Below the pieces are notes generated by a model that made no database searches, was not told where the DNA came from, and worked only from the letters and a program-made list of their open reading frames with translations. From Chthonomonadales bacterium (GTDB lineage: Bacteria; Armatimonadota; Chthonomonadetes; Chthonomonadales; CAJBBX01), in the NCBI GenBank assembly GCA_027459625.1, contig DAIDHP010000002.1, forward strand, positions 124,001 through 188,000: 64,000 nt of DNA. The letters are read 5' to 3'. Below are positions 10,836 through 47,477 of the stretch, piece by piece. Position numbers and translations under genes: made by a program. Each line of letters begins with the position of its first letter. Within the stretch, counting starts at the first letter, position 1.

Positions 10836-10981
10836 AGCATTCGCTCATCCCGCCCCGTTCTTCTCTTTATAAAAGTTTCTTAACTGAACCATTATCTATT
10901 ATTTAATCAGCAACCTTGCACGATAAGCTCTCGTATATAAAATAAGGCTTTTTATGCAATAATTCCACAGCATAGAGGTAT

Positions 10982-11054
10982 TTGCAAGAATCAATCTATT
11001 GCATGGAAGGGATTGAAACATCCTCAAGCGAAGCCAATGGATTGATTCTTGCAA
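10982..11054 (+). promoter_or_regulatory. Long hairpin in the korA leader (20-bp stem, 33-nt loop)
   Basis: Bases 10982-11001 and 11035-11054 are inverted repeats pairing over 20 bp with a single G-U. The loop contains a small GGAT/ATCC stem. The hairpin ends 20 bases before the korA ribosome binding site (GGAGG near 11075) and has no T-run after it. It may be a structured 5' leader controlling korAB or a tiny mobile element with 20-bp inverted ends. No flanking duplication is visible. Confidence 0.6.
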
Positions 11055-25894: not shown

Positions 25895-25984
25895 CAGGCG
25901 ATTGCAAAATCCGACACTTCGCCCGGCGCTTGAGATGGAAACGCGTCATTTGCACTGCGGAGAGGTTGATTTTGCAACGGTCTC
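25895..25984 (+). repeat. Diverged copy of the palindromic miniature element
   Basis: Left end CAGGCGATTGCAAAATCC and right end GATTTTGCAACGGTCTC resemble the termini of the better copies, and the length (90 bp) agrees. It fills the gap between the prepilin stop and the ribosome binding site of the next gene, which begins at the first base after it. Confidence 0.6.
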
Positions 25985-32030: not shown

Positions 32031-33302
32031 ATGAAAGTAAAATATAAAACGCCTTATTTTACTTTGGAGCGCGAATTGGACATTAGGGATTTTAAGGCGG
32101 GCGCTTATAGAAACGGTTACCAGTACCGCTATTATATGCCCAAAAAAATCAACCATCCCTTTACGTGGAACGACGACACCATCAACGCTCTTTTAGAAAA
32201 GGCGTCATTGAAGCTTGGTGAATTGAACGCATATGCTCGTCTGGTGCCTGATACGGATATGTTCATTCAGATGCATACAATGAACGAGGCGGTATTATCG
32301 AGCCGTATAGAGGGAACTCAAACCGACATCGAACAGGCTATGGCACAGGAAAACGTAATTGATCCTGAAAAACGTGACGATTGGCATGAAGTGCGGAATT
32401 ATGTAATCGCTATGAATCAAGCAATTGAAGGTTTGAAAAGCCTTCCCCTATGCAATCGATTAATTCGACAAACTCATCAAACATTGCTTTCAAGTACACG
32501 TGGCGAACATAAAAATCCAGGAGAATTCAGGAAATCCCAAAATTGGTTGGGTGGCGCATCCCTTGCTGATGCGATGTTTATACCGCCCATTCATACGGAA
32601 TTACCGGACTTGTTGTCTGATTTGGAAAAGTTTCTCAATAACTTCGAAATACGAATCCCTCATTTGGTGCGCATCGCCATAGCACATTATCAGTTCGAAA
32701 CGATTCACCCTTTTCTGGACGGAAACGGTAGAATTGGACGGTTGATGATTACTTTGTATCTCGTTGCTAACGGCGTTCTTGACAAACCATTACTATATCT
32801 ATTAGATTTTTTTGAAAAACATAAAACGCTGTATTATCAGGTAATTGCAAAATTCGCTTTTCAGGTATTTCGCCGAGCATGAAATGAGCGATATTAGCCT
32901 CATTTTCTGAATTTTGCAATTACCTCTTATGATAACCTGACATTTGTCAGAACGAAAAATGATCTCGGGCAGTGGGTCAAGTTTTTTCTGATTGGGGTGT
33001 TTGAGACCGGGGACAAAGCATCTTCCACACTGCAAAAGATAATTGAGTTGAAGGAGCGTCAGGAAAGGGAGATCATAATCCCAATGGGTAGGCGTTCCCG
33101 GCAGGCTCTCGCGCTGTACCATGAGCTTTTCAAATCTCCGGTTATGACTAGCAAGGAAGTTCAAGCCGTGACCGTCCTCTCCCCTAAGGCAGTGAATGAT
33201 CTCATCAATGTATTCCTGGAAAAGGGAATTTTGCGGGAAAGCACGGGGTATCAGCGAAACCGCATATTCGTTTTCAACGAGTATGTAAAGCTATTCCTAT
33301 GA
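32031..33302 (+). pseudogene. Fic-family AMPylation protein, split by a 93-bp insertion
   Basis: Residues 1-269 carry an intact Fic core: inhibitory-helix motif SSRIEG (90-95) and catalytic HPFLDGNGR (226-234). After LYY the frame enters the palindromic element at 32838 and stops at TGA 32880-32882, leaving a foreign QVIAKFAFQVFRRA tail. From 32931 the same frame resumes with DNLTFVRTKNDLGQW and runs to 33302, ending in a winged helix-turn-helix (TSKEVQAVTVLSPKAVNDLINVFLEKGILRE). Deleting 93 bp restores a 392-residue protein, the usual length. The truncated N-part might still be an active enzyme without its C-terminal domain. Confidence 0.9.
32838..32926 (-). mobile_element. Palindromic miniature element copy 1 (inside fic)
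   Basis: An 89-bp element with inverted ends of about 17 bp (AGGTAATTGCAAAATTC and its complement), flanked by TTAT at 32834-32837 and 32927-32930, which looks like a 4-bp target duplication. Read on the minus strand it differs from copy 2 at 47349 by one base. It encodes nothing, so it would need a transposase from elsewhere. Confidence 0.92.
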
Positions 33303-35058: not shown

Positions 35059-35136
35059 GAGGATATTGCAAAATTCGGAACATGAAAAGGTGGATGCGCA
35101 TTTGAATGTCTGAAACACGGATTTTACAATCGCCTG
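35059..35136 (+). repeat. Diverged, shortened copy of the palindromic element
   Basis: GAGGATATTGCAAAATTCGG at the left and CGGATTTTACAATCGCCTG at the right match the termini of the well-preserved copies. The length is 78 bp, so about 11 bp are lost inside. It lies between guaB and the DinB gene. Confidence 0.72.
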
Positions 35137-47348: not shown

Positions 47349-47437
47349 GAGGTAATTGCAAAATTCAGAAAATGAGGCTAATATCGCTCATTTCATGCTC
47401 GGCGAAATACCTGAAACGCGAATTTTGCAATTACCTG
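47349..47437 (+). mobile_element. Palindromic miniature element copy 2
   Basis: An 89-bp element, GAGGTAATTGCAAAATTC to GAATTTTGCAATTACCTG, between the GlmL-like and methyltransferase genes. It differs from the reverse of copy 1 by one base. Flanks are CGGA and CGAA, an imperfect 4-bp duplication. Confidence 0.93.
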
Positions 47438-47477
47438 CGAATTAAGAATTATTGCATCAGCCTAAATGGAGAGAATA

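Follow-up and report, generated by a model that had tools for sequence, protein, structure and literature searches.

The 89-bp repeats found in the window, i.e., the whole 64,000-nucleotide stretch of DNA that was analysed, very probably represent a MITE family of a single Armatimonadota genus that, as judged from sequence comparisons, was moved in trans by an IS1182/IS5-like DDE transposase through a shared 16-bp end, with 4-bp target duplications and in several waves. The family is a new member of a well-known kind of element, and not a new kind of element or mechanism, and its spread, which is recent, has reached scores of sites in a single uncultured Armatimonadota lineage. The element is shorter than approximately 300 bp and without protein-coding capacity, which corresponds to the definition of a MITE. 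The copies and target duplications detected in the window are as follows:

47349..47437, + strand: MITE copy 1, 89 bp; the start codon (47466) of a methyltransferase lies 28 bp downstream; empty site at G001:C169
47345..47348, unstranded: left target duplication of copy 1, CGGA; the empty site in G001 reads CACCGG-ATTATGAATT
47438..47441, unstranded: right target duplication of copy 1, CGAA, a single-base change from CGGA
32838..32926, - strand: MITE copy 2, 89 bp, in the 3' part of a Fic-domain gene (start 32031), which is truncated
32834..32837, unstranded: left target duplication of copy 2, TTAT, read with a one-base overlap
32927..32930, unstranded: right target duplication of copy 2, TTAT
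57506..57594, + strand: MITE copy 3, 89 bp, of an older subfamily, 80% identical to copy 1; empty site at G001:C122
57502..57505, unstranded: left target duplication of copy 3, TTAT, compared with the G001 empty site
57595..57598, unstranded: right target duplication of copy 3, TTAT, compared with the G001 empty site
35059..35136, + strand: old and decayed copy of 78 bp, also present in G001 at the orthologous position
~56025..56113, - strand: probable old decayed copy with a weak profile score (18 bits)

The three 89-bp copies with inverted ends of about 17 bp described in the initial annotation were all located exactly, and the ends were found to measure 17 bp. In copies 1 and 2, 17 consecutive paired bases (AGGTAATTGCAAAATTC) are positioned at the ends, inside a mismatched outermost base, and the inverted repeat of copy 3 features two mismatches. 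Copies 1 and 2 indeed differ by one base (88/89 positions identical); for copy 3, the reported length of 89 bp was reproduced, and the identity to copy 1, previously given as about three quarters, is slightly higher (71/89 positions). With up to three mismatches allowed, the end motif occurs 11 times in the window, compared with 0.32 ± 0.58 times in shuffled sequences. The gene carrying copy 2 was identified by matches to the Fic_N and Fic domains, and its frame runs on across the rejoined flanks when one TTAT is retained (LYY followed, across the junction, by DNLTFVRTKNDLGQW), indicating that the Fic gene was truncated by the insertion of copy 2. Single decayed end motifs were also noticed at positions 62276-62293, 10975-10992, and 25895-25912; the first of these (AAGGGAATAGCAAAATTC) continues into TATCGCTCATC, like the interior of the element, and therefore probably represents half of an old copy. 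A further observation in the window concerns positions 54885-55886 (- strand), where a 333-codon frame spans seven imperfect 45-bp tandem repeats and probably encodes a low-complexity repeat protein.

In the 4.55-Mb genome (G000), a 91-bp query recovered 40 copies at BLAST level; the identity was 93-100% for 27 of these, and a tail of decayed copies of the 89-bp element extends beyond the 40. The end motif, at up to three mismatches, was counted 241 times genome-wide versus three times for a reversed-pattern control. An iterated profile detected 88 places in the 1.54 Mb examined closely, 75 of them scoring at least 25 bits. As this detailed census covered approximately 1.54 Mb of 4.55 Mb, the total of about 200-260 copies of all ages estimated for the genome is an extrapolation, in which the weakest copies are uncertain. 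The distance from end to end features a sharp peak at 89 bp (31 end pairs). For the evaluation of target duplications, the bases to the left and right of the 89-bp unit were compared, and expected values were derived from shuffled pairings. Exact 4-bp duplications were present in 17/26 young copies (1.9 expected), 9/20 intermediate copies (0.8 expected), and 3/48 old copies (0.5 expected), and in some other young copies the duplication was off by one base. None of the duplication lengths 2, 3, and 5-8 was enriched among the copies in 1.54 Mb. The target sites are AT-rich, with ATAA/TTAT and AATA/TATT being the commonest.

Occupied and empty sites were compared with G001, the sole congener included, whose DNA is approximately 92% identical. 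The initial annotation had named a pattern that would speak against mobility, namely copies residing only at orthologous positions and no empty sites; this pattern did not hold, since empty sites were detected in G001. The site of copy 1 is represented there by a single CGGA, the right repeat of the window copy having changed later by one base, and at the site of copy 3 the flanks are joined with a single exact TTAT. Together with the 4-bp target duplications, these two empty sites corroborate the recent movement proposed previously. Likewise, the intermediate copy C11:74099 is absent from G001, where a single ATTA was found. Decayed copies at C11:63221, C4:28871, C4:33114, and window position 35059 are common to both species. 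Taken together, the empty sites and the shared decayed copies indicate that insertion proceeded in waves, some older and some younger than the species split. The Fic locus of copy 2 is absent from G001, and for this copy as well as for the young copies C2:190474 and C13:1965 no informative counterpart was available in G001, the surrounding DNA being missing or rearranged.

Insertions specific to G001 were also observed. At G001:C182, in the counterpart of C4:32300 (L208/L209), a 119-bp insertion with the ends GAGTGTGTTGCATAAA.../...TTTGTGCAACACACTC is bordered by TAAT on each side, with one TAAT in G000, and represents a second family of MITEs, which has a related end pattern (GAGNNNNTTGCA) and likewise duplicates 4 bp. 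On the same contig, the counterpart of C4:36182 (L210) contains an AT-rich insertion of approximately 90 bp with the ends ATTAATTCGGCAATTAAAT / ATTTAATTGCCGATTTAAT, which is probably a third miniature family.

The placement of the copies could suggest that they are conserved structured RNAs or regulatory DNA held by selection and not mobile at all. The stem is stable (z = -5.3 for the DNA fold of the 89-bp element), and only 7/75 classified copies are situated mostly inside predicted frames (3/12 young, 1/28 intermediate, and 3/35 old), compared with 90% for random places. Selection against gene disruption, combined with an AT-rich target, is enough to account for this intergenic bias. Moreover, no Rfam match was obtained in the window, empty sites and target duplications are clean, one copy interrupts the Fic gene, and the divergence of the old copies common to G000 and G001 is roughly equal to, or greater than, that of their flanks. 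As the sole explanation, selection on an immobile element is thus refuted and has a negligible probability; single copies could have acquired a role, and no evidence of a function of the 89-bp element was seen in the placement analysis.

Regarding the mobilising enzyme, 16-bp ends are common to the 89-bp MITE and to insertion sequences of approximately 1.4 kb in both species:

G000:C7:66966-68392: insertion sequence with MITE ends, 1427 bp, ends GAGGTAATTGCAAAATTCC and GAGGTAATTGCAAAATAAA
G000:C27:53168-54152: internally deleted insertion sequence with MITE ends
G001:C211:38-1435: insertion sequence with MITE ends, 1398 bp

The protein encoded by these insertion sequences features DUF772 and DDE_Tnp_1 domains, and the transposases of G000 and G001 are 83% identical over the first 203 residues. 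The transposase that moved the 89-bp pieces is probably the one encoded by such a longer insertion sequence, which ends in the same bases. According to the mechanism proposed, this DDE transposase would recognise the 16-bp MITE end ([G/C]AGGTAATTGCAAAAT) in trans and then mobilise the MITE, integrating it into AT-rich sites cut with a 4-bp stagger, which would give rise to the 4-bp target duplication; there would have been several waves of movement, the latest one later than the split of the two congeneric species. The sequences themselves show the ends, the target duplications, the empty sites, and the sharing of the ends with the insertion sequence; the action of the DUF772-DDE enzyme in trans, the details of its chemistry, and its present-day activity are deduced. 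At the full-size copies, a clear exact 4-bp duplication was not found (TTAA/TTAT at C7 and none clear at G001:C211). By eye, no similarity between the MITE interior and the insertion sequence was visible outside the ends; with the likeness confined to the ends, the analysis does not support that the MITE arose from the sequenced insertion-sequence copies by simple internal deletion. Further candidates for the helper were dismissed: a second DUF772 gene at G000:C19:9106 (L197; a 234-codon fragment) possesses no matching ends, and paired ends of this kind were not found for the PF01609 genes of G001 at C119 and C214.

The DDE insertion sequence with the same ends agrees with the earlier proposal that the protein-less element depends on a transposase supplied in trans, an action that we infer. 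Of the two types then considered, IS and REP-associated tyrosine transposase (RAYT), the second did not stand. Movement of REP/BIME-like palindromes by a RAYT (HUH) transposase would fit small, palindromic, protein-less, and mostly intergenic repeats in many copies. HUH single-strand transposition (IS200/IS605, RAYT) produces no target duplication and relies on asymmetric ends. Both ends of the MITE are formed symmetrically by the same 17 bp, and the 4-bp duplication, being single in the empty site, refutes this reading; with a DDE insertion sequence carrying the same ends in the genome as well, it is extremely improbable.

The family may also be as described but depend at present on another, unassembled insertion sequence, of which the broken DUF772-DDE copies would be mere bystanders or relatives. 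All the helper transposases detected in G000 and G001 are disrupted, either by frame breaks or by deletion, and no DDE_Tnp_1 match was obtained in the G000 assembly at E ≤ 0.001, although the young MITE copies are near-identical. The two assemblies are drafts of 114 and about 250 contigs, respectively, and intact multi-copy insertion sequences are often lost from drafts. Nevertheless, the MITE and the DUF772-DDE insertion sequences agree in 16 bp at their ends, and the 1.54 Mb examined closely contained no further full-size element ending in this way, making a different helper unlikely. For the DUF772-DDE transposase favoured here, an intact copy presumably exists or recently existed.

Intact homologues of the helper were identified in a Capsulimonadaceae MAG (365 codons) and a Nitrospirae MAG (407 codons). 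Their best NCBIfam match is IS1182, with IS5 models close behind. They achieved 89.9 and 66.6 bits for the IS1182 model NF033551, which is below the cut-off of 270 bits, and the transposase fragment of the studied genome reached 34.2 bits for the same model. The best IS5 scores were likewise below the cut-offs (64 of 140 for NF033581 and 60.6 of 110 for NF033580), and membership of the helper in IS1182 or IS5 is therefore not claimed. IS1182 members also differ from the homologues in length, the model comprising 488 positions versus 365-407 codons.

Among 61 genomes, the 89-bp family was detected only in G000 and G001; two weak matches, in G023 and G026, are confined to one end and one half of another element, which is 99 bp long. 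The exact 15-bp end was present in 8/291 genomes of the phylum Armatimonadota and abundant only in G000 (40), G001 (65), and G017 (84), all three of which possess the transposase. The same end, accompanied by exact 4-bp duplications, delimits elements of other lengths in G017 (178 bp), G025 (120 bp), G026 (99 bp), and G244 (192 bp). A related end, GAGGTAATTGCAAAAGTG, is located 96 bp upstream of the transposase at G017:C213, another one (GAGCTAATTACAAAAGTC) accompanies the transposase of G040, and in Nitrospirae (L188) the ends GAGGCTCTTGCAAAAGT / AGGTTCTTGCAAAAGTC flank the intact 407-codon frame. This distribution indicates that the end sequence is tied to the transposase group across genera and phyla. 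The 84 exact GAGGTAATTGCAAAA ends of G017, a Chthonomonadaceae MAG, are situated on elements of approximately 180-265 bp (for example, C22:28447-28710 and C43:15127-15385) and represent a separate expansion with the same end. No plasmid or phage match of the 89-bp element was obtained by blastn, and the exact end was not found in viral contigs. The literature search yielded no paper that links miniature elements to Armatimonadetes, and a text search for the end sequence returned no relevant description.

Comparable systems have been described. The MITEs of ISMac2 (IS1182 family) in Methanosarcina acetivorans, one set of which comprises 14 copies of 160 bp with 26-bp ends and a DR of 4 (PMC3852290), resemble the 89-bp family, by description, in being protein-less, in the 4-bp repeats of that one set, and in having inverted ends that have been traced to an insertion sequence of the IS1182 family, but they are longer (160-169 bp), have longer ends, and reside in an archaeal host. 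ISPse1, also of the IS1182 family (1653 bp, IR 16/16, DR 4; PMC3281130), shares the 16-bp ends and the 4-bp duplication, which is clear here for the MITE and not at the full-size copies. The RUP element of Streptococcus pneumoniae, an intergenic element of approximately 100 bp in about 100 copies, has ends matching the resident IS630-Spn1, its proposed trans mover (PMC2229807); it is similarly short and intergenic with the ends of a resident insertion sequence, whereas it uses the TA target of IS630 and a different helper family.

Tentatively, and at somewhat less than even probability, the helper may constitute an undescribed group between IS1182 and IS5 (DUF772 and DDE_Tnp_1, ends GAGGNNNTTGCAAAA, 4-bp duplications), of which 89-bp derivatives underwent a post-divergence burst in one genus while all autonomous copies decayed. 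In that case, the miniature element would have survived its helper or be in the course of doing so. The family provides a clean case of a MITE transposition burst in an uncultured lineage, for which occupied as well as empty sites, a rule for the target, and a likely helper are available. Furthermore, its definite end signature, comprising GAGGNNNTTGCAAAA and the 4-bp duplication, offers a way to find, in other phyla, an insertion-sequence group missed by curated models, together with its miniature derivatives.
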